From assembly GCA_026003195.1 (NCBI GenBank), contig BPGU01000003.1:310001-374000 (forward strand): a stretch of DNA of 64,000 nucleotides. Direction: 5' to 3'. This DNA comes from Armatimonadota bacterium. GTDB taxonomy: Bacteria > Armatimonadota > HRBIN16. The notes beneath the pieces are model-generated. The model searched no databases, was not told the origin of the DNA, and saw nothing but the letters and a program-made list of their open reading frames with translations. Made by a program: the position numbers and the translations under genes. Shown one piece after another: positions 30,992 to 45,099 of this stretch. How positions within the stretch are numbered: the stretch's first letter is position 1; each line of letters opens with the position of its first letter.

Positions 30992-31198
30992 TTATCGTCC
31001 GTAGCCGGGCGGAGGCGGTGACGCCATTGGCATCTGGGACTGACCTGGCGGGGGTGGTGCCAGATTGATGCCGGGTGGTGGCGTACCCGAGATGCGCTTT
31101 GGTCCCGAAAACCAGTGGCGCACGTAGAAGAAGCCCGCAACTACCAGAGCGATGACGATCACCGCTATCGCCAAGCCAGGCGGAATCTCGCGTTTCAT
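30992..31198 (-). CDS. mini membrane protein paired with pseudopilin (copy A)
   Basis: 68 residues from ATG 31198 (GGAGGTGC upstream). One N-terminal membrane helix (LAIAVIVIALVVAGFFYV) after MKREIPPG, then a proline/glycine-rich tail ending PPPPGYGR. The same plan (K-x-x-I-P, helix, Pro-rich tail) is seen at 34321 and 38621, always next to a pseudopilin. It is downstream of the pilin at 31252-32034, beyond a hairpin. Function unknown. Confidence 0.75.
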   Translation of the reverse strand: MKREIPPGLAIAVIVIALVVAGFFYVRHWFSGPKRISGTPPPGINLAPPPPGQSQMPMASPPPPGYGR

Positions 31199-31251: not shown

Positions 31252-32034
31252 CTACGGATTCAACACAGGGTCTGCCTCGCGGTCTGCCTGCACCGTCCAC
31301 TCATGGGGGTAGGTGTGCCCCCACTTGCGGGGGGAGACGTGACCGTCCGTCCAGATGATGTTCTGCATACTGTTGAAGAAGCCCTGCACGTTGGGGTCTC
31401 GCGAACTCCAGTCGGTACCGGTGCAGGTCCAGGTGTTCCAGCCCAGGCGCAGCGGGTAGTCGAGATGCCCATCCTGCCAGGAGTCGGGGCAGTGTCCGTT
31501 GACGACGTAGATGGTCCCGGCTGGCTCCTGCAACGCCGCCTGGCTCAGGAAGCGGTCCCAGACGATGCCGTAGTGAGCACCTGGGTTGTTGTCTTTCCAC
31601 GGAGTATAATTCCACGTGCCTACCCCGTTCAGCATGTAGGAGAAGTACAGGGTGTTGCCGTCAGGGCTGAGGTTGATGTTCAGTGCTTTGCAGACCCAAG
31701 ACTGATTGGCGTCGTATGCCGCCTCCAGCTGAGGCGAGAGGAACACGCGCGTGTTCTTCACGTACGGCTGCAACAGGGCGGGCCAGTATACCCAGGGACC
31801 CGGCGAACAGCGAGGATCGCCATCGTACGGAAGCCCAAAACCCAACAGCTTCTCATCGTAGTCCTGCGAGTACATCATTAGCGCCAGCCCCTGCTGCTTC
31901 ATGTTGCTGATGTCTGACGCCTGACGCGCTTTGGTGCGCGCTTGCGAGAACACAGGGAACAGGATCGCTGCCAGTATCGCGATAATCGCGATAACCACTA
32001 ACAGCTCGATCAGCGTAAAAGCGTTTCGTTTCAT
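31252..32034 (-). CDS. DUF1559/SBP_bac_10 pseudopilin (copy A)
   Basis: 260 residues from ATG 32034 with AAGGAGG upstream. Prepilin signal [17 protein letters not shown], then [26 protein letters not shown]. The globular part has YDEKLLGFG, a VFLSPQLE segment, and [18 protein letters not shown] near the end, the H-x-SP-x-x-W variant also found in the 37793 copy but not in the others. It is divergent from nothing; the lacI gene upstream runs in the same direction 120 bases away. Confidence 0.88.
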
Positions 32035-32077
32035 TTTTGGGAGACCTCCTTTTTGTTGATTGTTAGTCGTTGGCAGT

Positions 32078-32094
32078 CGCAGGCTCAGCCTGCG
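32078..32094. repeat. short palindrome CGCAGGCT-AGCCTGCG (copy 1)
   Basis: CGCAGGCTCAGCCTGCG, an 8-bp inverted repeat with one central base, between lacI and the pseudopilin. The same palindrome, with TT in the centre, stands inside the signal region of the lipoprotein gene at 42073-42090. Confidence 0.65.
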
Positions 32095-32154
32095 CAAGAC
32101 GGAAACAGCCTGGGCTTTGCAACGGCAAGCAAGAAAGTTCCCTACGGTCTGCTC

Positions 32155-33141
32155 TCACCCCCTTTGCGTGGACGCCCTTACCACCAGTGTGGGCTGCAGC
32201 AAAGCGCTTTGCCGTTCGGTGTGAGGTTCAGCAATGCGCTTTTGCAGAAACTGCACCGCTATCTGACACATCTCCTCCAGCGGCTGGCGAATAGTGGTGA
32301 TGGGCACGTCCAGATATTCCGTGTCCTCGATGCCGTCACAACCCACAAGAGCCACCTCATCGGGTATGTGCACCCCCAGTAAACGCAAGCCGTGATACGC
32401 GCCGATAGCCATCTCGTCGTTGTGGCAGAAGATGCCGTCGGGCAAACCACACTCCTGCACATAGCGGCGTACAGCCATGCTGGACGCCGCCCGCGACTGG
32501 TCGGTGGCGACGATGTACTCCGCGCTCATCCCTGCTTCGCTCACCACGCGGTGATAGCCATCGCGGCGCGGTTCCCCGACATAGCGTGACTCGGCGTTGA
32601 CCAGATAGGCTATCCGCCGGCAACCTGCCTCCAGCAGATGCTGTGTCGCCTGGATCGCCCCGCTGTAGAGGTCTATACGCACATGGTCGGTTTCAGTGAG
32701 CACATACGCACCCATACTTACCAGAGGCACTCCGCGTCGTTGCAGGGGTTTCCACATTTTCTGGAGATACACCGCACCTTCGTGCGCCAGGATGCCGTCT
32801 ACACGCCCCGTGCCATGCCATGCACTGCCCGACAGGTGGGAAATGCACCGAATCAGTGTGTCGTAGCCCTGCTGGCGAAGGTTGTCTTCCACCAGGTACA
32901 CCACGCGCGCGTGGAAGCTGGTAAACAGCTCGTTCATCCATAGCGCAACAATGCCGGTACGCCCAGTCACAAGCGAACGCGCCGCGAGGTTGGGATGGTA
33001 GCCCAGCTCCCGTGCAGCCTGCCAGACACGCTGGCGCGTGGCTTCGGAGATAAGATGCGCTCCGCGCCCGCTCAGCACCCGGGAGACGGTTGCAGGCGAC
33101 ACGCCGAGGTGTTCAGCAATCTGCTTGATGGTTACCGACAT
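32155..33141 (-). CDS. LacI-family transcriptional repressor
   Basis: 328 residues from ATG 33141 (MSVTIKQIAEHLGVSPATVS); an upstream start at 33162 would lie within the operator. The N-terminal helix-turn-helix and hinge (VSRVLSGRGAHLISEATRQRV, NLAARSLVTGRTG) are followed by a periplasmic-binding-protein-like sugar-sensing domain with IFCHNDEMAIGAYHGLR and PDEVALVGCDGIEDTEYLDVPITTI-like sequence (about residues 225-280). LacI proteins release DNA on binding a sugar or nucleoside. Two matching palindromes lie in the adjoining divergent promoter region, so it most likely controls itself and the rightward island. Confidence 0.94.
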   Translation of the reverse strand: MSVTIKQIAEHLGVSPATVSRVLSGRGAHLISEATRQRVWQAARELGYHPNLAARSLVTGRTGIVALWMNELFTSFHARVVYLVEDNLRQQGYDTLIRCISHLSGSAWHGTGRVDGILAHEGAVYLQKMWKPLQRRGVPLVSMGAYVLTETDHVRIDLYSGAIQATQHLLEAGCRRIAYLVNAESRYVGEPRRDGYHRVVSEAGMSAEYIVATDQSRAASSMAVRRYVQECGLPDGIFCHNDEMAIGAYHGLRLLGVHIPDEVALVGCDGIEDTEYLDVPITTIRQPLEEMCQIAVQFLQKRIAEPHTERQSALLQPTLVVRASTQRG

Positions 33142-33154
33142 CGGGTAGTCACAC

Positions 33155-33174
33155 TTATGCAAACGTTTGCATAA
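33155..33174. promoter_or_regulatory. LacI-type operator O1
   Basis: TTATGCAAACGTTTGCATAA is a perfect 20-bp palindrome with the central CG typical of LacI-family sites. It abuts the lacI -10 (33175-33180) and covers the expected transcription start, 14 bases before the lacI ATG: a textbook place for autorepression. Confidence 0.88.
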
Positions 33175-33203
33175 AGTATATCACAGAGATTCCATGGTGT
33201 CAA
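33175..33203 (-). promoter_or_regulatory. lacI promoter
   Basis: On the minus strand TTGACA (33203-33198), 17 bases, TATACT (33180-33175), a near-consensus sigma-70 promoter directly next to operator O1. Confidence 0.82.
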
Positions 33204-33272
33204 CACTTTTGGGGCAAAAAATGTGAAAAACTCGTAAACACACTGTTTTTTTGCTCTGCCTCGCAAAAAAAC

Positions 33273-33290
33273 TATGCAAACTCTTGCATA
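33273..33290. promoter_or_regulatory. LacI-type operator O2
   Basis: TATGCAAACTCTTGCATA: the same TATGCAA half-sites as O1 with a changed centre. It overlaps the -35 (33284-33289) of the rightward promoter, so a bound repressor would block RNA polymerase. O1 and O2 are 118 bases apart centre to centre, about eleven helical turns. Confidence 0.82.
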
Positions 33291-33312
33291 ATCATAGACG
33301 AAGAGTTATAAT
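33284..33312 (+). promoter_or_regulatory. rightward promoter of the carbohydrate island
   Basis: TTGCAT (33284-33289), 17 bases, TATAAT (33307-33312). It drives the ArsR-like regulator, mini protein, pseudopilin and GH43 genes. The expected start near 33319 rules out the first in-frame ATG at 33328 and favours 33346. Confidence 0.8.
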
Positions 33313-33345
33313 AATAGTCGTCATGTTATGTTTTTGAGGTGTGTC

Positions 33346-34324
33346 ATGCGGGCGCATATTCTGGAAGTGCACGGCTCCGAAAGCGTGGATCTGTTTAAAG
33401 CGCTGGCTTCGGAAACGAGGGTGCGGATACTGGAGCTGCTCGCGCAGGGCGAGAGGAACATCAACGAGCTCGCTCAAGCGCTGAATACCTCCCAGCCCAC
33501 CATCACCAAGCACGCTCAGTTACTGGAAGCGATTGGGCTCATCAAAACGGAGTACAAGCCGGGCGTACAGGGCATGCAGAAGCGTTGTCGTCTGGCATAT
33601 GACCGTTTTATTGTCTCCTTCGAACCGACCAATCCCCCGGAAGACCGCGTGGAAGAGATTGAGATGCCTGTTGGCTTGTACACCCTGGTGAACCCAACCC
33701 CGACCTGCGGTCTGGCAAATCGCGAGCGGATTATCGGCTTTTTAGACGACCCACAATCCTTTTTCGAACCGGAGAGGGCTACCGCGCAGCTGTTGTGGAT
33801 GGCAGAAGGGTTTGTAGAGTACGTTTTCCCTTGCACGCTGGGAACCGATGTGGAGATACGGCGCCTCGAGCTCCTGATGGAGGTCTGCTCCGAAGCACCC
33901 AACTACGACAACGACTATCCCTCCGACATCACCGTCTGGATCAACGGTGTGGAGATTGGTACGTGGACCTCGCCAGGTGACTTTGGGGGTAGGCGCGGAC
34001 GGCTGAACCCACCCTGGTGGAACGACTACATGACGCAGTACGGCATGTTGAAAATCTGGTCGGTGGATGCTGAGGGCAGCTACGTGGACGGTACCCCCCG
34101 TTTCCGAAACCACCATCGCCGACCTGATGCTGGCACCTCATCACCCCATTATCGTGCGGATCGGGGTCAAGCCCGACGCTCAGCATATCGGGGGCTTTAA
34201 CCTGTTCGGGCGGGGGTTCGGTAACTACGAACAAGACCTGGTGCTGCGTCTGCACTATGCTGTCAGGGGACGGGGTAGCCGCACTGAAGCAGCTGTGGCA
34301 CAGGAAGGAGGTGAGAACAGGTGA
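33346..34324 (+). CDS. ArsR-like regulator with large C-terminal domain, frameshifted (copy 1)
   Basis: ATG 33346 has TTGAGGTG upstream. The winged-helix part (LFKALASETRVRILELLAQG, INELAQALNTSQPTITKHAQ) is followed by a conserved domain with NPTPTCGLANRERIIGFLDD, QLLWMAEGFVEYVFP, SEAPNYDNDYPSDITVWING and LNPPWWNDY. At the six-C run 34094-34099 the frame breaks and would end at 34200; the next frame supplies SETTIADLMLAPHHPIIVRI and FNLFGRGFGNYEQDLVLRLH, matching the paralogue at 36767 to its end, and stops at 34324, overlapping the next start. So either a sequencing/indel error or a real mutation. The C-terminal domain is probably a sugar-type ligand sensor. Confidence 0.75.
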
Positions 34325-34533
34325 GCTCATCCGGTCTCAAACGGGAAATCCCCGGCTGGGTGGGGGTTGTGGTCATTGTGGTGATACTGGCAGTGCTGGC
34401 AATAGCCGGTTATCGGTATTTCACCGCCGGTGCTGCGCGCAAACCGGGTGAATACCCGCCGGAGGCGTATCGTCCGCCAGGGTATGTGCAACCCTCACAG
34501 ACGCCCGGCGCCGCAGCCGGCGGAGGGCGGTAA
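34321..34533 (+). CDS. mini membrane protein paired with pseudopilin (copy B)
   Basis: 70 residues from a GTG that overlaps the (frame-corrected) regulator stop as GTGA, with GGAGG upstream. [20 protein letters not shown] starts a single helix, then a Pro/Gly-rich tail ([18 protein letters not shown]). Same design as the genes at 30992 and 38621. The overlap supports the frame-corrected reading of the regulator. Confidence 0.75.
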
Positions 34534-34618: not shown

Positions 34619-35452
34619 ATGTCCAAGCGCAAAGCGTTTACGCTGATCGAGTTGCTCGTCGTTATCGCCATTATCGCGATACTGGCGGCGATCCTGTTCC
34701 CGGTGTTCGCCCAGGCTCGCGAGAAGGCACGAGCAGCATCCTGTCTGTCCAACATGAAGCAGCTGGGTCTAGCTCTGCAGATGTTTGCCCAGGACCACGA
34801 CGAGTATCTGCCGAAGGCGTGGTTCAACGACGAGCCCGACACCTCGTGTCCGCAGTGCTGGGGCTACAAAGACCCGATGTGGGGCTGGGACTACGTGCTT
34901 CTGCCCTACGTCAAGAACAAGCAGATTTACCAGTGCCCCTCGGATAGCGAGAGCTGGCCGCGCGGGCTGTGGAACGACACATGGAGCAACCTGCCCGACA
35001 AGCCCGATGCGGACAACATCCCCGGCTCGTACCGCATCAACATCAGCGACTACCCGAACGGACCCTGGAACGCGCTGAAGCTGGCGGCACTGGAGAAGCC
35101 CGCTGAAGCGATCCAGATTGTGGAAAGCGTGCCGGGCATCAACAACGCGCAGTGGCACCAGGTGGCTACTTGGGAGGCTGACGAAGGCTATGTGTGCATC
35201 GACTTCACCGCCAACGTCGCCTACGGTCGCCACAACAAGACCACCGGCAACACCATCTCGCAGCGCAACCAGGGCGGTTCCAACTACGTGTTCGCCGATG
35301 GACACGCCAAGTACATGACCTGGGGACAGACCTGGCGGCGCATCGGCGACGATGTGCAGAAAGGCGGTCAAACGGTCACGCCCACCATGTGGCGACAGAA
35401 CTTCAGCGGCTGGAACGACCGCTGCAACTATCAAGAGGGACAGAACAGGTAA
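34619..35452 (+). CDS. DUF1559/SBP_bac_10 pseudopilin (copy B)
   Basis: 277 residues from ATG 34619 with AAAGGAGG upstream. [18 protein letters not shown] prepilin signal, [20 protein letters not shown], then [27 protein letters not shown] and the C-terminal [18 protein letters not shown]. The paired cysteines CPQCW are a feature of this copy. Placed between an ArsR-like regulator and a GH43 enzyme, it may help capture or bind the polysaccharide that the enzymes attack (inference from context and from the SBP_bac_10 name of the domain). Confidence 0.88.
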
Positions 35453-35570: not shown

Positions 35571-36479
35571 ATGGCAACCTACACCAACCCGGTGTACGCA
35601 CGCGACTTCCCCGACCCACATGTGCTCTTCTACCGGGGTAAGTTCTACGCATACGCCACACACTCGTCTGGTCACGACTTTCAGGTGATGGAATCGCCCG
35701 ACCTGGTGCACTGGACACACAAAGGCAGTGCGTTTCGCCCCCCATGGTCGCGGGAGCACCTGTGGGCGCCGGAGGTGATAGCATATCGTGGGCAGCTGTA
35801 TATGACCTACTCTGCGCGTAACCCGCAGACGGGCAAACACGACATCGGCATCGCCACCTCCAACAACCCGCTTGGACCGTTTAGCCATCGGGCGATACTG
35901 GTGCGCGGCGACGATAACCGTGTGGGCGTGATTGACGCCACCATCTTCTTTGACAGAGACAGAACCCCTTACCTGATATACTCGGAAGAGGATCCGCGAG
36001 CCATCGTGATGCGCCGCATGAGCGCCGACCTGCTGAGCGTGAGCGAGGAGAAAACAGTGCTGCTGCGTCCTGACCAAGACTGGGAGAAGGGCATTGTGGA
36101 AGCGCCCACCATGCTCTACCGCAACCGCACCTACTACCTGTTCTACTCCGGCGGATGGTTCCAGAGCTACAAACGGGATGCCTGCTATGCGGTAGCGTAT
36201 GCCACCGCCGCCTCGCTGAAGGGACCCTACACCAAAGCCGAGCGCATCCTGCAAACCGTGCCGGGCAAGGTATACAGCCCGGGACACCAGTGCATCGTGA
36301 GCCTACCGTCGGGTGAGATGTGGATGCTCTATCACGCCTGGGACGACCAGAATGAGCCCTTGTATGGTTCCAACCCGTTGGGGCGCACGCTGCGGCTAGA
36401 TAGATTGTTGTGGAAGGAAGGCAAGCCGTCTGTCGACGGTCCCAGCACCGAACCCAAGCCCGCGCCCCAAATACGATGA
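35571..36479 (+). CDS. glycoside hydrolase family 43 enzyme
   Basis: 302 residues from ATG 35571 (GGAGGTGACG upstream). Five-bladed beta-propeller of GH43, acting on arabinose/xylose/galactose linkages. The three catalytic acids are visible: Asp in ARDFPDPHVLFY (about residue 14), the pKa-setting Asp in VGVIDATIFFD (about 121) and the acid Glu in GIVEAPTMLYR (about 177). LWAPEVIAYRGQLYMTYSAR and GHQCIV complete the pattern. There is no signal peptide, so it would act in the cytoplasm on imported oligosaccharides. Confidence 0.93.
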   Translation: MATYTNPVYARDFPDPHVLFYRGKFYAYATHSSGHDFQVMESPDLVHWTHKGSAFRPPWSREHLWAPEVIAYRGQLYMTYSARNPQTGKHDIGIATSNNPLGPFSHRAILVRGDDNRVGVIDATIFFDRDRTPYLIYSEEDPRAIVMRRMSADLLSVSEEKTVLLRPDQDWEKGIVEAPTMLYRNRTYYLFYSGGWFQSYKRDACYAVAYATAASLKGPYTKAERILQTVPGKVYSPGHQCIVSLPSGEMWMLYHAWDDQNEPLYGSNPLGRTLRLDRLLWKEGKPSVDGPSTEPKPAPQIR

Positions 36480-36766: not shown

Positions 36767-37750
36767 ATGGCTCAGACCATTCTGGAACGTAGCGTGTTCG
36801 CTTGTGAGGAGATATTCCGTGCTCTCGCCTCGCCAACACGGTTGCGTATCCTGAAGCTGCTCACCGAACGCGACCTCAACGTCAACGAAATCGCCCGCGC
36901 CCTGGACCTGAACTATCCTACGGCGTCCAAACATATTCAGGTGCTGGAGCAGGCGGGGTTGATCCTCTGTGAGTACATGCCCGGTAGTCAGGGGGCACAA
37001 AAGCGATGTCGCTTGCGCTGGGACAAGATAATCTTCTCCCTGGAAACCGGTGGTCTCGCTGAGCAGGTGGAAGAGATGGAGATGGCTATCGGGATGTATA
37101 CCCTTGCCAACCCCTCGCCGACATGTGGGCTCGCCAGCCGTGACGGCTACATTGGATTGATGGACGACCCTCAATCCTTCTTGCTTCCAGAGCGAGCGAA
37201 CGCACAGTTGCTGTGGATGGGCAGCGGCTTTGTGGAATATGTGTTCCCGAACTTCTTGCCAACCTCGGTGCAGATTACGCAGGTAGAGGTTGTGATGGAA
37301 ATCTGTTCTGAGGCTCCAGACTATAACAACGATTACCCCTCAGACATTACTCTCTGGATCAACGGTGTAGAAGTGGGTACGTGGACATGCCCGGGAGACT
37401 TCGGAGGCAAGAGGGGCAGACTAAACCCACCCTGGTGGAACGACCATGGTACGCAATTCGGAGTATTGAAGGTCTGGTCGGTCGGAGAAGATGGCTCATA
37501 TATCGACGGAATGCGCCTCTCGGATGTGACCGTCGAGGACATCATGGTCGTCCCTCAGCAACCGGTGACCGTGCGCATCGGAAACAAGCCGGACGCGAGA
37601 CATGTTGGAGGGTTCAACCTGTTCGGCAAGGAGTTTGGCAACTATGAGCAAGACCTGCTGCTACGTCTGCACTATGCACCTCTCCGCCATGCTGGCGAGA
37701 CTGTGGAGGCGCAAGAAACTGCTCAACACGGAGCCTGGCCGGACGAATAA
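36767..37750 (+). CDS. ArsR-like regulator with large C-terminal domain (copy 2, intact)
   Basis: 327 residues from ATG 36767 (AGAGGAAAG upstream). The winged helix occupies about residues 12-95 (FRALASPTRLRILKLLTERD, LDLNYPTASKHIQVLEQAGL). The C-terminal 220 residues match the frameshifted paralogue closely: NPSPTCGLASRDGYIGLMDD, DPQSFLLPERANAQLLWMGS, NNDYPSDITLWINGVEVG, GRLNPPWWNDHGTQFGVLKV, GGFNLFGKEFGNYEQDLLL. This WING/PPWWND domain is also known in regulators of other phyla beside sugar genes; a beta-sandwich ligand sensor is likely. It precedes another pseudopilin pair. Confidence 0.85.
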   Translation: MAQTILERSVFACEEIFRALASPTRLRILKLLTERDLNVNEIARALDLNYPTASKHIQVLEQAGLILCEYMPGSQGAQKRCRLRWDKIIFSLETGGLAEQVEEMEMAIGMYTLANPSPTCGLASRDGYIGLMDDPQSFLLPERANAQLLWMGSGFVEYVFPNFLPTSVQITQVEVVMEICSEAPDYNNDYPSDITLWINGVEVGTWTCPGDFGGKRGRLNPPWWNDHGTQFGVLKVWSVGEDGSYIDGMRLSDVTVEDIMVVPQQPVTVRIGNKPDARHVGGFNLFGKEFGNYEQDLLLRLHYAPLRHAGETVEAQETAQHGAWPDE

Positions 37751-37792
37751 TCCGCCCGGTGTACATAATACGTGACTAAGGAGGAGCGAAAG

Positions 37793-38614
37793 ATGAGAAG
37801 GTTCACGGCGTTCACACTCATCGAGTTGCTCGTTGTGATCGCGATCATCGCGATACTGGCGGCGATTCTGTTCCCCGTGTTCTCCCAGGCGAGAACGAAG
37901 GCGCGTCAAGCGTCGGACATGAGCAACCTCAAGCAGATTGGGCTGGCGCTGGCACAGTATTCCCAGGACTACGATGAGACCATGACCCCATGGGACATTA
38001 TCGGCACTCCGGGCACAGGTTGCCCGAATGGCGGGCTTATCTATTGGCCCAAGTTGCTCCAGCCCTATGTCAAGAATACCCAGATCTTCCTCTCCCCGGG
38101 TTACGTGTTCGAGTATGACCTCGACGCGGAACCGAATCGTACGCCCTGGGTATGTCGTGAGCAGAACATCAACATCTTTTCCAATCGCTACATGCGCGTG
38201 TCGTATCTGATGAACAACATCGAACCGGAGATTTGGGACGGCACGCCATGGAAAGATTCCCCGTTGAACCACTGGGGCATTCGTACCTACTGGTGCGGCA
38301 ACCAGATTTGCGTCACCCACATGTCGGAGATTCAACTGCCTGCGAATACCCTGCACGTGGTCAACGGTCACTCCTACGGGGAGTCGTGGGGAGCTCGCTT
38401 TACCGACTTCCTGCACGCGCGAGGGCTGTGGCCATGGACGGCGGTCGGCAAAGAGTGGTCCGGTGGCAAACCCGAGATACACGGCATCTTCAACAACAGG
38501 GTCAACATCCTTTGGGTGGATGGGCATGTCAGCAGCCGTGTGTGGGGCACCACCTATCCCTGCGAGTGGTCGGTACAGGATGACTGCAGCATGGACCCCT
38601 GGTGGCAAGGGTGA
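37793..38614 (+). CDS. DUF1559/SBP_bac_10 pseudopilin (copy C)
   Basis: 273 residues from ATG 37793 (AAGGAGGAGCG upstream). Prepilin signal [63 protein letters not shown] and [20 protein letters not shown]. Closest to copy A (same VF..SP and GHVS..W variants), suggesting these two bind similar ligands or share descent. It follows regulator copy 2 and is followed after six bases by its mini membrane protein. Confidence 0.88.
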
Positions 38615-38620
38615 TGCCCT

Positions 38621-38785
38621 ATGAAAAAGGACATCCCGACAGCATGGGTCATCGCTGCTATTGTGGTGGTGCTCGTCGCTATAGCGGCGTTCTACTATAG
38701 TCGGCTGAGTGGACCGATAGTAGAGAGGACACCACCACCGCCCGGCTATTACGGTCCCACTACCACACCAGCTGCGCCGCGATAG
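38621..38785 (+). CDS. mini membrane protein paired with pseudopilin (copy C)
   Basis: A 54-residue gene: MKKDIPTAWVIAAIVVVLVA starts a single helix, followed by a short Pro-rich tail (TPPPPGYYGPTTTPAAPR). The N-terminal K-x-[DE]-I-P and the tail mirror copies A and B. Six bases after the pilin stop, so co-translated. No ribosome site is obvious beyond the pilin end. Confidence 0.7.
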   Translation: MKKDIPTAWVIAAIVVVLVAIAAFYYSRLSGPIVERTPPPPGYYGPTTTPAAPR

Positions 38786-38850: not shown

Positions 38851-39966
38851 ATGCAAGACGTAGCAGGCATGATACACATTCAGTGGTCCACCGAGATACA
38901 CCGCGCGGAAGGGGCAAAAGGCTTCCTCGTACTACCAAATGGCGAGGTGCTTGCCACACGCACCGAAGCACGCTCCGATGGGGTGCATGTTCTCCTGTCG
39001 CGTAGTGCGGATGGAGGACGGTCGTGGCAGTGCGTCGGAACCATCGTTTCCGACCCCAACCCCACTACCGACCTCGGCGACGGCAACCTGTGCCTGCGGC
39101 GCAACGGCGAGCTGCTCTACGTATATCGCCACAATCTCTATCGTGGCGAGCACGCGCCAAAACCGTATTACTCCGTCAAAGTGGCTGCGAGCAAAGACGG
39201 CGGCAAGTCGTGGACCGCTCATTCTACCGTGTTCGAAGCGCATCCTGTCGGAGAGGGACCCAGTCGCGGCTTGTGGGCGCCGTTCCTGTTCGAGACCAGG
39301 CGCGGAATGCTGCAATGCTACTATGACGATGAGTATACCCCCTGGCGCGAAGGGTTCTCCGGACACCAGTGGGTGCGGATGCACACGTGGAACCCCCGAA
39401 CGCACCGGTGGGAGAACCCTGTCACCGTCAGTCGCGCACACAACCCGGCACACCTCTCGCGCGACGGCATGCCCAGTGTCGTGGAACTTTCCGATGGGCG
39501 TTTGCTGTGCGTGCTGGAGAGCGTTCAAACCTTCCCCCCTCATGCGGGCGTGATACGCTGCGTGGAGTCGCGCGACGGCGGGCGCACCTGGAGCTGGCAG
39601 CGCGAAGAGCGGCGCATCGTGTACCAACCTCGCGATACCCGCTTTATGGCGCTGGCGCCCTGGGTGACGAAGATACTGGACGACCATTTACTGTGCGTCT
39701 TCATCACCGACGAGGATAGAGACACCCCCGACAAGCCGGGCACCCCGCCGCCTCAGCTCAATATGGACGTTAAATGCGTCTGGAGCGCCGACGGCGGCAA
39801 GACGTGGAGCCTGCCCGCACAAACCGTGTACGCCGAAACGCACAAGTGCTATATGCCCGGTGTGGGTGTGCTGAAACAGAGGGGCAGGGAGGCAGAGATT
39901 CTGGTGCTGTTTCTCGAAACACAAAGAGGCTTTTTCAGCCGAAGAGGCGTTGTGCGGAGGGGATAG
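38851..39966 (+). CDS. sialidase-fold (BNR/Asp-box) exo-glycosidase-like protein
   Basis: 371 residues from ATG 38851; ATG 38869 is an equally possible start and neither has a strong ribosome site. Four Asp boxes mark a six-bladed propeller: SADGGRSW (about 50), SKDGGKSW (about 114), SRDGGRTW (about 241) and SADGGKTW (about 314). No signal peptide. Proteins of this kind remove sialic acid or act on other acidic or unusual sugars; the arginine triad of true sialidases cannot be assigned by eye. It is followed directly by the GHL6-like gene. Confidence 0.8.
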   Translation: MQDVAGMIHIQWSTEIHRAEGAKGFLVLPNGEVLATRTEARSDGVHVLLSRSADGGRSWQCVGTIVSDPNPTTDLGDGNLCLRRNGELLYVYRHNLYRGEHAPKPYYSVKVAASKDGGKSWTAHSTVFEAHPVGEGPSRGLWAPFLFETRRGMLQCYYDDEYTPWREGFSGHQWVRMHTWNPRTHRWENPVTVSRAHNPAHLSRDGMPSVVELSDGRLLCVLESVQTFPPHAGVIRCVESRDGGRTWSWQREERRIVYQPRDTRFMALAPWVTKILDDHLLCVFITDEDRDTPDKPGTPPPQLNMDVKCVWSADGGKTWSLPAQTVYAETHKCYMPGVGVLKQRGREAEILVLFLETQRGFFSRRGVVRRG

Positions 39967-42033
39967 ATGCACCAGACCGGTTCCCGATGGTACGAGAAAG
40001 CATGGCGGCGGGCAGTGATAGACATGCACATCCCGGACTGGGACCCGCGCTTTCTCTCACAGTTCAGCCCGGACGACTACGCGGACGCGCTGGCGCGAGC
40101 ACGAGTGCAGTCAGTGGTGCTGTATGTGCAGTCGCATACGGGGTTGTTCAACTACCCCACGAAAGTGGGCAAACAGCACGCCAATCTCAAAGGGCGCGAC
40201 CTCGTGGCGGAGATGATAGAAAAATGTCGCCGAAAGGGTATCGCCGTCGTGTTGTACGTCAGCCTCATCTTTGACTGCTGGGCGTTCGACAACCATCCGG
40301 AATGGCGGGGGCGGGATGCTGACGGCAACGAATTCGGTAGAAACAGCCGCTACGGGGTGGTATGTCCCCATTCGCCCTATCGCGAATACGTGCGGGCATG
40401 GGTCGAAGAGATGTGCGAACGGTACGACTTTGACGGTGTGCGCTTTGACATGACCTTCTGGCCCGGAGTTTGTTACTGCGAGCACTGCCAGCGGCGGTGG
40501 AGGGAAGAGGTGGGAGGCGAAATGCCTCGCATGGTGGACTGGACGGACGAGCGATGGGTGTTGTTTCAGCGCAAGCGAGAGCAGTGGCTGGCGGATTTCG
40601 CCCAGATTGCGACCAGCACGGTGAAACGCATTCGCCCAGACGCCTCTGTAGAACATCAGGCATCCACGTACCCCGCAGGCTGGCAGCTGGGGGTATCGTA
40701 TCCGCTGGTGGCACACAACGATTTTCTGGAGGGCGACTTCTATGGAGACGCCGTTCAGGGTTCCTTCGTGCGTAAACTGCTCGATGAACTCACCCCGAAT
40801 CGCCCCTGCGGCTTTGAAACAAGCCTTGCCACCTCGCTGAGCGATCACACGGGCAGGAAGTCGGATGCCCTTCTGGAGGCGAAAGCGAGCGCAGCCATTG
40901 CGGACAGCGCGGCGTTCATCTTTATCGACGGGATAGACCCCATCGGCACGTTGAACCGGGAAGTGTACGACCGCATGGGGCGTCTTTTCGATCGTCTGAT
41001 GCCGTATTACCGTGAACTGGGCGGAGAGCGTGTGGCGGATGTGGCTGTCTACTACTCGCTCTACTCCAAGTTCGACATGCGGGGCAACGGACGCCCTGTC
41101 ACGCAGGCGAGCGGCAAAGACACTCATACTGCGGCGGCGGTGGAGGCGGTGCGCGCCCTCTTGCGACATCATCTGCCTTGCACGGTGATTACCGCCAGGC
41201 AGAGCGAGCAACTGCATCGCTTCCCGGTGGTCGTTCTGCCGAACGTGCATCATCTCTCGCCCGGCGAGTGCAACGCGCTTCGCGAGTACGTGCGGCAGGG
41301 AGGCGCGCTTTACGCCAGCGGTGGTACATCACTGGTAACCTCGGAGGGCAAAAGACACACCGATTTTCTGCTGGCAGACGTGTTTGGCGTATCACTGGTG
41401 AAGGCGGACTGGTCCGATGACGTGCACTATATCGCTCCCACCCGTGCGGGCGCAGACCTCTTCGAGGGATGGAGTGCCAAGTATCCGCCGATGGTACGGT
41501 GCTATGGTTTTCAGGTACGCTCCCACCCGCGTGCCGAGATACTGGCGACCACTACCCTGCCGTGGCGTAGCTCTGAGCCGACGCAGTTTGCTTCTATCCA
41601 CAGCGACCCGCCCTGGCAACCCACAGACAACCCGGAGATAGTGTTCCACAGGTTCGGGAAGGGATGTGTCGTTTACTGTGCCACCCCTATCGAGATGGAG
41701 GAGAACCTGCAGGGGGTGTTTATCCATCTCCTGCGCAGGCTTCTTCCACGACCAACGCTGGAGGTAGATGCTCACCCGGCGGTAGAGGTGACACTGTTCC
41801 ATCAGCCGGAGCGAAAGCGCTATCTGTTGAGCATGGTCAACTTCCAGCACGACCTGCCGAATATCCCGATAGACGGCATCCGAATACGTCTGCGTCTGCC
41901 CTGTTTGGTTACAAGAGCTCTCCTCCTGCCGGAAGGCAAACCCCTGCGCTTCCAGCAACGTCAGGGCGAAGTCACCTTCACCGCCCCCAGGCTGCACACG
42001 CTGGCGATGTTTGGGGTGAAGTATGAAGGGTAG
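39967..42033 (+). CDS. GHL6-type glycosyl hydrolase with beta-galactosidase trimerisation-like domain
   Basis: 688 residues; ATG immediately follows the previous stop. The N-terminal TIM barrel has the pattern of hypothetical glycosyl hydrolase 6 / alpha-L-fucosidase-like proteins: YVQSHTGLFNYPTKVGKQH, YVSLIFDCWAFDNHPEW, YDFDGVRFDMTFWPGVCYCE (nucleophile candidate Asp in RFDMTF, about residue 159) and FLEGDFYGD. From about residue 390 a Rossmann-like GH42M domain follows (FPVVVLPNVHHLSPGECNAL, YVRQGGALYASGG). The C-terminus is a beta-sandwich. No signal peptide, so intracellular. The sugar specificity is unknown. Confidence 0.82.
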   Translation: MHQTGSRWYEKAWRRAVIDMHIPDWDPRFLSQFSPDDYADALARARVQSVVLYVQSHTGLFNYPTKVGKQHANLKGRDLVAEMIEKCRRKGIAVVLYVSLIFDCWAFDNHPEWRGRDADGNEFGRNSRYGVVCPHSPYREYVRAWVEEMCERYDFDGVRFDMTFWPGVCYCEHCQRRWREEVGGEMPRMVDWTDERWVLFQRKREQWLADFAQIATSTVKRIRPDASVEHQASTYPAGWQLGVSYPLVAHNDFLEGDFYGDAVQGSFVRKLLDELTPNRPCGFETSLATSLSDHTGRKSDALLEAKASAAIADSAAFIFIDGIDPIGTLNREVYDRMGRLFDRLMPYYRELGGERVADVAVYYSLYSKFDMRGNGRPVTQASGKDTHTAAAVEAVRALLRHHLPCTVITARQSEQLHRFPVVVLPNVHHLSPGECNALREYVRQGGALYASGGTSLVTSEGKRHTDFLLADVFGVSLVKADWSDDVHYIAPTRAGADLFEGWSAKYPPMVRCYGFQVRSHPRAEILATTTLPWRSSEPTQFASIHSDPPWQPTDNPEIVFHRFGKGCVVYCATPIEMEENLQGVFIHLLRRLLPRPTLEVDAHPAVEVTLFHQPERKRYLLSMVNFQHDLPNIPIDGIRIRLRLPCLVTRALLLPEGKPLRFQQRQGEVTFTAPRLHTLAMFGVKYEG

Positions 42034-43351
42034 TCTACTTCATCCCTATAAAGAGGGCAAAAGCACAGTAGCCGCAGGCTTTAGCCTGCGCACGATGGCT
42101 CTGCTTGCGCTGTTCTGTGTTGCCAGCCTGTGGCTCGCAGGCTGTTCGTCCAGCGAGCACTCCAGCAACGCTGTCGGCACCGAGATACGCTTCTGGAACG
42201 GCTTCACCGGTCCCGATGGGGCAACCATGGAGAGGATCGTCAAGCAGTTCGAGCGTGAAACGGGTATCCGCGTGAAGATGCAGATTATCCCGTGGGGCAC
42301 CTATTACGACAAGCTGGTGCTCAGCCTCGCTTACGGGGGTGCGCCCGACGTGTTCATCTGCCATGCCAACCGCATCGCCGAGTTCGCCCGATATGGCGTC
42401 TTCCGCCCACTGGACGACCTGATAGATGCCGACAAGGGGTTCCCTGTGCAGGACTTCTTGCCCAACATCTGGCAGGCAGGCAGATATGAGGGCAGGCAGG
42501 TAGGATTGCCGCTGGACTGCCATCCGCAGGGGCTGTACTACAACCGGAAGCTGTTCCGCGAGGCGGGCATCGTGGATACGCAGGGCAACCCCAAGCCGCC
42601 TGAAACGTGGGAAGAGTTTCTGGAAGCCGCCCGCCGCCTCACCAGAGATAAAGATGGTGACGGACGCCCCGACCAGTGGGGCTTCGCCTTCACCTGGCTG
42701 CGCACCAACTGGATAACCTTCATCAGTCAGCATGGGGGTTCTATTCTTTCTCCCGACCTGAAACGCGCCGCGCTCGCCGAACCGCCTGCGGTCCGAGCTA
42801 CCCAGCAGATGTGCGACCTCATCTACAAGTATCGTGTCGCTCCCAAACCCGAGGGCTTCGACTCGTGGATGGGCTTCCGGCAGGGGCGTGTGGCGATGGC
42901 GATAGAGGGTATCTATATGCTCTCCAGTGTGGAGGAGCAAAAGGGGCTGGAGTACGCCGGCGCACCCGTGCCCTCCTTCGATGTCCATCGAGCGGTGTGG
43001 GGTGGTTCGCACATGCTCTGTATGCCCAAAGACCTTCCGCCCGAACGAGTGCAGCTCGTGTGGCGGTTCATGCGCTACCTTTCCGACCATAGCCTGGACT
43101 GGGCGGAGGGAGGGCAAATACCTGTGCGACGCTCGCTGCTGAAACAGCCCCGTTTCCGGCAGATGCGCGTGCAGTACCAGTTCGCAAAGCAGCTGCCCTA
43201 CGTGGTGTTTGAACCTGCTTCGTACAAATCCACCGAAATCATGCCGTTCTACGACGCCGCCATCGAAGCCGCCCTGCTGGGTATCAAGACGCCACAGGAC
43301 GCGCTGAACGAGGCGGCACGACGAATCCAGCAGGTACTGGACCGACCATGA
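42023..43351 (+). CDS. sugar ABC transporter substrate-binding lipoprotein
   Basis: 442 residues from ATG 42023, overlapping the upstream gene by 11 bases. The lipobox LAGC is at residues 38-41, unusually far from the start, because a 30-bp stretch with the palindrome CGCAGGCT-TT-AGCCTGCG (42073-42090) has been placed in frame in the n-region. The mature part is SBP_bac_1: FWNGFTGPDGATMERIVKQF, MQIIPWGTYYDKLVLSLAYG, PDVFICHANRIAEFA, YYNRKLFREAGIVD. It delivers an unidentified sugar to the two permeases that follow. Confidence 0.92.
   Translation: MKGSLLHPYKEGKSTVAAGFSLRTMALLALFCVASLWLAGCSSSEHSSNAVGTEIRFWNGFTGPDGATMERIVKQFERETGIRVKMQIIPWGTYYDKLVLSLAYGGAPDVFICHANRIAEFARYGVFRPLDDLIDADKGFPVQDFLPNIWQAGRYEGRQVGLPLDCHPQGLYYNRKLFREAGIVDTQGNPKPPETWEEFLEAARRLTRDKDGDGRPDQWGFAFTWLRTNWITFISQHGGSILSPDLKRAALAEPPAVRATQQMCDLIYKYRVAPKPEGFDSWMGFRQGRVAMAIEGIYMLSSVEEQKGLEYAGAPVPSFDVHRAVWGGSHMLCMPKDLPPERVQLVWRFMRYLSDHSLDWAEGGQIPVRRSLLKQPRFRQMRVQYQFAKQLPYVVFEPASYKSTEIMPFYDAAIEAALLGIKTPQDALNEAARRIQQVLDRP
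42073..42090. repeat. short palindrome CGCAGGCT-AGCCTGCG (copy 2, inside a coding region)
   Basis: CGCAGGCTTTAGCCTGCG reads AGFSLR in the signal-peptide n-region of the binding protein. It is the same palindrome as in the gap at 32078-32094. Confidence 0.65.
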
Positions 43352-44265
43352 AAAGGATGGCTTTTCCTGCACATCAAAGGCACGAGGCACTGGTGGGCTA
43401 TCTATTCATCGCGCCCTATCTGGTGCTGTTTGTGCTGTTCGTACTGGTGCCCGTGGTGTGGGGCTTCTTCATCAGCCTGCACAACTGGCACGTGCTGGGC
43501 GAGCAGAAGCCGTTCGTCGGTTTTGCCAACTACCGCGCCTTGCTCCGGGACGACCTGTTCGGCATTGCCCTGCTCAACACGGGCTATTTCGCCCTGCTGA
43601 CGGTGGTACCGGGCAATGTCGTGTCGCTACTGCTCGCGCTGGGGTTGAACGCCCGCATTCGCGGAGAGGACGTATATAAAGCCATCTTCTACCTGCCCGT
43701 CATCCTGTCGGTGGCGGTGGTGGCGATTATCTGGCGCTGGATGTACAGCACCGAGTTCGGGTTGCTGAACTACTACCTGAAAGTGCTGTGGCAGTTCCTG
43801 CACCTGCCCGGCGAGTTCCAGCCCGTACCCTGGCTCAACAGCCCGCAGACCGCCATGCCTTCGCTCGCGCTGATGAGCATCTGGTGGGGCGCGGGGGGCA
43901 GTATGCTCATCTATCTGGCGGGCTTGCGCGCGATCCCCGAGGAGTACTACGAGGCGGCACGCATCGACGGGGCAAGCACGTGGGGACGTTTCTGGCACAT
44001 CACCCTGCCCCTGCTGAAACCATCGTTACTGTTCTGTCTGGTGATGTCGCTGATTGGCTCGTCGCAGGTGTTCGGGCAGAGCTACATCCTGACGGGCGGC
44101 GGTCCGCACTACAGCACGCTGACGGTGGTGTTGTACATGTACCAGACAGGCTTCAGCCTGTATCGCATGGGTTACGCCTGCGCGGTGGCGTACGTGATGT
44201 TTCTCATTGTGCTGGGCTTCACGCTGTTGCAGTTTCGACTACTCTCGGCGAGGGGGGAGGAATAG
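43348..44265 (+). CDS. carbohydrate ABC transporter permease, MalF type
   Basis: 305 residues; ATGA overlap with the binding-protein stop. Six helices (LVGYLFIAPYLVLFVLFVLV at the start) and the EAA loop EAARIDGASTWGRFWHITLP (about residues 208-227). Second gene of a CUT1-type importer. Confidence 0.94.
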   Translation: MKRMAFPAHQRHEALVGYLFIAPYLVLFVLFVLVPVVWGFFISLHNWHVLGEQKPFVGFANYRALLRDDLFGIALLNTGYFALLTVVPGNVVSLLLALGLNARIRGEDVYKAIFYLPVILSVAVVAIIWRWMYSTEFGLLNYYLKVLWQFLHLPGEFQPVPWLNSPQTAMPSLALMSIWWGAGGSMLIYLAGLRAIPEEYYEAARIDGASTWGRFWHITLPLLKPSLLFCLVMSLIGSSQVFGQSYILTGGGPHYSTLTVVLYMYQTGFSLYRMGYACAVAYVMFLIVLGFTLLQFRLLSARGEE

Positions 44266-44268
44266 GAG

Positions 44269-45099
44269 ATGCGCTTCTCGCTGGCGCGTGTGGTGCTCTA
44301 TCTTCTGATGACGGTAGCTGCCGTTCTCTTCCTGATGCCGGTGGCGTGGATGCTGGTGATGTCCATCCTGCCCGAGCACGAGATTTTCCAGCCGGTTCCA
44401 CACTGGATACCGCAGGAGCCAACGTTGCAGAACTTTCAGGAGCTGTTCCAACGGGCGGAAGAGGCTCCGGTAATGCGCTGGTTCTGGAACAGCCTGTTCG
44501 TGGCGGGCACGGGTACCGTTGCCTATCTGTTGCTCAGCTCTATGGCGGCGTACGCCTTCTCACGGCTGGAGTTTCCAGGCAGGAACGTGCTCTTCTTCAT
44601 CGTGCTCTCCACGCTTATCATCCCCGGGCAGGTGACCATCATCCCTGTCTTCTTGATCCTGCAGAAGCTGGGATGGTTCAACACCTATTATGCATTGATT
44701 GTGCCCGGTCTGGCAGGAGCTTTCGGGGTGTTTCTATTGCGACAGTTTTTCCTCACCATCCCCCGCGAGATAGAGGAAGCCGCGCTGATTGACGGCTGCG
44801 GCAGAGCGGGCATCTACTGGCGCATTATCCTGCCCTTGAGCAAACCCGCGCTGGCAACGCTGGCGATTTTCTCCTTCCTGGGCGGCTGGAACGACTTCAT
44901 GCTGCCCCTCATCGCCACCAACGAGATCGAGATGCGCACCCTGCCGGTGGGGTTAACCATCTTTTTGGGGCGCTACAGTATGCAGTACGGTCTGGTGATG
45001 GCGACGGCAGTCATCGCCACATTGCCCGTGCTGGTGGTGTTCCTGCTCTTCCAGCGACATATCATCCGCGGCGTGGTGTTGACAGGACTGAAGGGATAG
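44269..45099 (+). CDS. carbohydrate ABC transporter permease, MalG type
   Basis: 276 residues, three bases after the MalF-type gene, with GGGGAGGAATAGG upstream. Six helices, EAA loop EAALIDGCGRAGIYWRIILP (about residues 170-189), C-terminus VLTGLKG. It ends the island; no ATP-binding subunit follows, so an MsmX/UgpC-like ATPase from elsewhere must energise this importer as well as the one at 16-19 kb. Confidence 0.94.
   Translation: MRFSLARVVLYLLMTVAAVLFLMPVAWMLVMSILPEHEIFQPVPHWIPQEPTLQNFQELFQRAEEAPVMRWFWNSLFVAGTGTVAYLLLSSMAAYAFSRLEFPGRNVLFFIVLSTLIIPGQVTIIPVFLILQKLGWFNTYYALIVPGLAGAFGVFLLRQFFLTIPREIEEAALIDGCGRAGIYWRIILPLSKPALATLAIFSFLGGWNDFMLPLIATNEIEMRTLPVGLTIFLGRYSMQYGLVMATAVIATLPVLVVFLLFQRHIIRGVVLTGLKG

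Follow-up and report, generated by a model that had tools for sequence, protein, structure and literature searches.

The operator of the E. coli purine repressor PurR has the core GCAAACGTTTGC, which is also that of the site described below, and in E. coli LacI a C-terminal helix serves tetramerisation. LacI-family regulators mostly bind even palindromes centred on CG, and of about 1300 members of the family that have been studied, 72% are autoregulated (PMC4052901). The half-site of CytR reads TGCAA...TTGCA (PMC3454398). Large families of pilin-like proteins have been described separately: in the passages that deal with them, the DUF1559 (PF07596) family is given 74 genes in R. baltica (Planctomycetes; PMC2754498) and 68 paralogues of unknown function in P. 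limnophila (PMC10632474), and 79 PulG-type pseudopilin genes are reported in Fimbriimonas (PMC4072686).

Here we analyze a lacI gene, its promoter and its neighbors in a 64-kb stretch of DNA from an Armatimonadota bacterium (hereafter the window; GCA_026003195.1, contig BPGU01000003.1). A first-pass annotation had described the locus as a two-operator, looping LacI switch that governs a divergent sugar island and defines a regulon motif. We find nothing out of the ordinary for LacI biology in the operator pair, and an unexpected link between a sugar-type regulator and DUF1559 pseudopilins that merits further study.

Results

The lacI gene (32155-33141, minus strand) encodes a 328-aa LacI-family repressor with a helix-turn-helix domain (PF00356, 58.9 bits for a cut-off of 27) and a Peripla_BP_3 domain (PF13377, 128.7 bits for a cut-off of 26.5). 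None of the curated NCBIfam LacI subfamilies reaches its cut-off on this protein. Its nearest solved structures by sequence are those of PurR (E ~1e-35): the alignment pairs residues 4-325 with positions 2-330 of the 340-aa PurR and leaves no C-terminal segment over. The gene has a strong predicted promoter, TTGACA-17-TATACT (33175-33203, minus strand), which matches 11 of the 12 consensus positions and carries an extended TG. This promoter abuts a site that we call O1 (33155-33174, no strand), so that the predicted transcription start falls inside it. O1, TTATGCAAACGTTTGCATAA, is palindromic across all 20 bp, as the first-pass annotation had said, and no other perfect palindrome of this length occurs in the window; O1 is even and has the central CG typical of the family.

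Eight congeners hold an orthologue of this LacI at 62-86% identity, giving with the present genome (G000) a set of nine (G000-G004 and G006-G009). The O1 core ATGCAAACGTTTGCA(T) lies between the -10 box and the start codon in all nine (62-100% identical), while the flanks have diverged, and no orthologue has a different palindrome in its place. O1 also travels with lacI into other neighborhoods, for example in G001, G002, G003 and G007; in G002 the gene is divergent to an argininosuccinate-synthase-like gene, as read from its translated start. Because all nine orthologues keep O1 in this position, self-repression through O1 is well supported, and the proposal that O1 is the autoregulatory operator of LacI is, as far as sequence can speak to it, strongly supported. 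A LacI paralogue of the same genus (54-56% identical) has a similar site, ATGCAATCGTTTGCAG, at its own start, and three distant LacIs of family f14 have ATGCAA(T/C)CGTTT(C/T)CAT. Most congeners have O1 as their sole site of this kind, or nearly so.

A candidate second operator, O2 (33272-33291, no strand), has the sequence CTATGCAAACTCTTGCATAA. It differs from O1 at 3 of 20 positions, keeps both ATGCAA/TTGCAT half-sites exactly and overlaps the -35 box of the rightward promoter, as proposed; its centre is ACTC, without the CG. The two sites lie 117 bp apart from centre to centre (11.1 helical turns), rather than the 118 bases given previously. The half-site itself, TGCAAACG, had been thought uncommon for the family; it is PurR/CytR-like, TGCAA being the published CytR half-site and O1 having the usual architecture of LacI-family sites (PMC3454398, PMC4052901). 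Nor does it mark a regulon across the genome: with up to 3 mismatches, O1 and O2 are the only sites in the 4.58 Mb. The reversed control pattern gave no match in the whole genome, and shuffled windows gave none to the O1/O2 pattern. A looser search, TATGCAAN4TTGCATA with 2 mismatches, returned 3 extra places in the genome against 7 for its reversed control, which is chance level. By sequence, this LacI is thus predicted to be a local, self-repressing regulator, like most LacI-family regulators studied (PMC4052901).

The rightward promoter, TTGCAT-17-TATAAT (33284-33312, plus strand), precedes arsR1. Its -35 box (33284-33289), identical with the right-hand half of O2, matches the consensus at only 3 of 6 positions, and its -10 box (33307-33312) is perfect. 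The earlier description of two promoters with 17-base spacers and good hexamers therefore holds for both spacers, for the lacI hexamers and for this -10 box, and is generous for the rightward -35. A consensus promoter scan did not return the arsR1 promoter among its matches. Spanning the -35 and -10 boxes is a 12-bp direct repeat, ATAATNATAGNC, present twice 20 bp apart (33288-33319, plus strand) and found as a single occurrence in the genome; we speculate that it is a site for another regulator, perhaps ArsR1. A repeated promoter class of the form TTGCATAATNATAGAC...TATAAT was considered and ruled out, the arsR1 promoter element being single-copy in the genome. Upstream of the -35 box, a GAAAACACCGTTTTTT-like block (33236-33253) has been kept by most of the nine congeners compared, G008 not among them, and is possibly the site of yet another regulator.

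The promoter leads into a long plus-strand series of genes. arsR1 (33346-34200) encodes an ArsR-type helix-turn-helix with a beta-sandwich domain; relative to the congeners, whose proteins have 325-331 aa, a C run near 34094 contains one additional base, which disrupts the frame past about codon 250 and may be either genuine or a sequencing artifact. The rest of the arsR1 cassette consists of a small single-pass membrane protein (34321-34533) and a DUF1559 pseudopilin (34619-35452). A GH43 glycoside hydrolase (35598-36479) precedes a second cassette (36767-38785) made of arsR2 (36767-37750), a DUF1559 pseudopilin (37772-38614) and a small membrane protein (38621-38785), and the series ends with a BNR-repeat protein, a GHL6-type glycosidase and a sugar ABC transporter with a binding protein and two permeases (38851-45099). 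ArsR1 and ArsR2 are two paralogues in one island, each an ArsR-type helix-turn-helix fused to a strongly conserved beta-sandwich. Sugar binding by ArsR2 was considered from fold matches to beta-sandwich proteins, among them cellulose-synthase BcsB and plant lectins, and set aside, since the TM scores of 0.2-0.3 are too weak.

This island is conserved on its own, in the order arsR1, small membrane protein, pseudopilin, GH43, BNR, GHL6, ABC transporter, with the arsR2 cassette forming part of it in some genomes. With the exception of G007, a genome 77% complete, the congeners have an arsR1 that is 83-96% identical. lacI adjoins the island in only three of nine genomes (G000, G006 and G004); the island occurs without an adjacent lacI in the other six (G001, G002, G003, G005, G008 and G009).

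What does stay with lacI lies behind it. On the minus strand follow a DUF1559-type pseudopilin (31252-32034), with a type IV pilin N-terminus and an AlphaFold model at pLDDT 82, and a small single-pass membrane protein that begins MKREIPP and has a P/G-rich tail (30992-31198). The pseudopilin carries the N-terminal cleavage/methylation segment of type IV pilins (TIGR02532, 30.8 bits for a cut-off of 16.3, for 31255-32034). It was not among the matches of a genome search with PF07596; its paralogue at 37772-38614 does match this family. A fold search with the predicted model suggests that only the N-terminal helix is pilin-like, the C-terminal domain having no solved relative. The pseudopilin follows lacI in eight of the nine genomes that hold the gene, and none was found behind lacI in G008; the small membrane protein comes next in all six genomes with enough sequence (G000, G001, G002, G004, G006 and G007). 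In full-length comparisons the pseudopilin is 92-96% identical in the genomes where LacI is only 62-68% identical (G001, G002, G004 and G007). Being far better conserved than LacI, it may have LacI-independent roles. By gene order, then, the conserved passenger of O1 would be the pseudopilin gene and not the sugar island. The idea of a LacI switch on the divergent island is thus supported in part, well as self-control of lacI and less surely as control of the island; the unit that the first-pass annotation overlooked, lacI-pseudopilin-small membrane protein, is the predicted conserved target.

Between the lacI stop and the FTLIELL motif of the pseudopilin lie 108-205 nt, which may accommodate a processing signal or an independent promoter; this counts against the explanation that we favor below. 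Hairpins in this gap were considered as a clear terminator and rejected, as they have no T run and look like dispersed repeats. Three CGCAGGCTGAAGCCTGCG-type hairpin repeats lie between lacI and the pseudopilin in G009 (L010/L096), and the window has a related copy at ~32075-32095.

The same pairing recurs across the genome. There are 16 LacI genes and 73 DUF1559 genes, the one in the lacI cassette bringing the pseudopilins to 74 places. A pseudopilin lies directly downstream on the same strand of 14 of the 16 LacI genes, in one case within the same open frame and in some with a small membrane protein gene between. It also lies directly behind 8 of 11 GntR matches and behind both long ArsR genes. 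Almost every LacI and most GntR regulators in this genome thus head a pseudopilin unit; assuming ~4300 genes, the chance of 22 such pairs among 27 LacI and GntR genes is ~1e-34. A KKEVSP-type small membrane protein is found beside 12 of 24 regulator-linked pseudopilins versus 3 of 50 others (Fisher p = 3e-5); the filter was strict and passed over no fewer than two genuine cases, that of the lacI unit among them. These MKREIPP.../KKEVSP... small single-pass proteins with Pro/Gly-rich tails are seen in the window at 30992-31198, 34321-34533 and 38621-38785, beside regulator-linked pseudopilins. At L118:2417-4306 (G000:C1 ~319900-321800), a single uninterrupted frame of 629 aa runs through LacI and a DUF1559 pseudopilin, although the pseudopilin keeps its own ATG.

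LacI and GntR were counted in this one genome, and the phylum was sampled. Across Armatimonadota, 12 of the 30 best-scoring LacI loci (six outside the genus) are followed by a pseudopilin at a distance of no more than 500 bp, and none of 30 TetR control loci has any pilin motif nearby. In a set of 80 LacI homologues, all from named genomes, nine are paired: seven carry the label Armatimonadota or fall in the window's genus, and two are labelled only 'bacterium'; no locus labelled as another phylum in this set has a pseudopilin within 1200 bp behind it.

Discussion

We favor, with a probability of roughly 0.7, a joint explanation in which O1 would autoregulate the lacI unit and O2 would be a second, weaker site damping arsR1 in this strain. 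A local PurR-like LacI, probably a dimer, would bind O1, cover the lacI transcription start and thereby shut off lacI, the DUF1559 pseudopilin and the small membrane protein, until an effector, probably a sugar, releases it. At O2, most likely the weaker site, LacI would block the -35 box and dampen the divergent arsR1 promoter, from which the ArsR-type pseudopilin cassette and then the GH43, BNR, GHL6 and sugar ABC transporter genes may be transcribed. We are less sure of LacI control over these neighboring sugar genes, and of DNA looping, than of the autoregulation.

The part of this explanation that concerns O2 has a serious competitor, to which we give slightly less than even odds: O1 would be the sole LacI operator, and O2 a by-product of an arsR1 -35 box, TTGCAT, that happens to coincide with a half-site, the left half being mostly neutral and the island being under ArsR1/ArsR2 rather than LacI. 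In the nine arsR1 promoters compared (G000-G006, G008 and G009), the -10 box and the -35 box, hence the right half of O2, are invariant. In an ungapped comparison the left half is exact in three (G000, G003 and G005), one off in G006 and G009, two off in G004 and G008 and further off in G001 and G002, so that it decays in six of nine. G005 keeps O2 intact and has no LacI orthologue, its best LacI match being a 48% paralogue. The divergent arrangement itself occurs in a third of the genomes, and the direct repeat over the -35 and -10 boxes is better conserved than O2. On the other side, O1 and O2 occupy one intergenic region, and with the right half fixed, at least 9 of the 12 remaining positions would match at one place by chance with a frequency of only ~0.0004-0.002. 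Moreover, a gapped alignment shows the left half to be no less conserved (7.3/9 per column) than the surrounding -35/-10 spacer (7.2). The claim that O2 is an operator on the divergent promoter is thus borne out here by exact half-sites and weakened by its poor conservation with lacI; given the left-half losses and G005, we regard O2 as plausible in the G000 strain and not as a conserved operator.

The switch first suggested, with LacI occupying O1 and O2 at once, the intervening 117 bp drawn into a loop and the two promoters repressed cooperatively, has in its favor that two matching sites stand 11.1 helical turns apart, each on a promoter; we nevertheless consider it improbable. The 328-aa protein ends, by sequence, where dimeric PurR ends and aligns end to end with dimeric PurR/RbsR; looping is unsupported because LacI lacks a tail that could form a tetramerisation helix. 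O2 is inexact in both other genomes that share this arrangement, its left half reading ATGCAG in G006 and TTGCAG in G004. Equally doubtful is the view that the palindromes have nothing to do with the neighboring LacI and serve instead as operators of a different regulator or as RNA or terminator elements. A conserved palindrome beside a regulator gene is not always its own site, and the related LacI paralogue has a very similar one; yet O1 stays with lacI when the neighborhood changes, and an Rfam search of the 64-kb window gave no match.

The favored explanation, autoregulation of a pseudopilin unit through O1, invites a broader and more tentative proposal, which we think somewhat more likely to be wrong than right: Armatimonadota may carry dozens of self-regulated cassettes, each with a LacI, GntR or ArsR-beta-sandwich regulator, a DUF1559 pseudopilin and often a small membrane protein, and each displaying one pilin-like protein at the surface only when the matching glycan is sensed. 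If true, this would amount to a repertoire of condition-specific glycan-binding or glycan-sensing filaments and would provide a first function for the DUF1559 family. The pairing connects an orphan family with regulators of the carbohydrate type and offers testable sensor-target pairs, of which O1 is the cleanest starting point. In a search of the openly available literature, we found no published description of a regulator-DUF1559 pairing.

The DUF1559 families of Planctomycetes and the PulG-type family of Fimbriimonas are the same kind of large paralogous expansion, and the Armatimonadota members have a type IV pilin N-terminus. Unlike here, the passages on these families in PMC2754498, PMC10632474 and PMC4072686 make no link to LacI, GntR or ArsR regulators or to small membrane proteins. 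AglR and ThuR resemble the present LacI in being autoregulated, local and next to a divergent ABC transporter and hydrolase operon (PMC4052901), but here the divergent operon comes with ArsR-type regulators of its own and is adjacent in only 3/9 congeners. E. coli CytR has the same half-site letters as O1 and O2; its sites have variable spacing and involve CRP, whereas the spacing here is fixed and the centre of O1 is CG. E. coli PurR shares overall length and domains with the LacI described here, but PurR is a global purine regulator, whereas this LacI has only two genomic sites, one of them at the gene that encodes it, and stands at the head of a pseudopilin unit.
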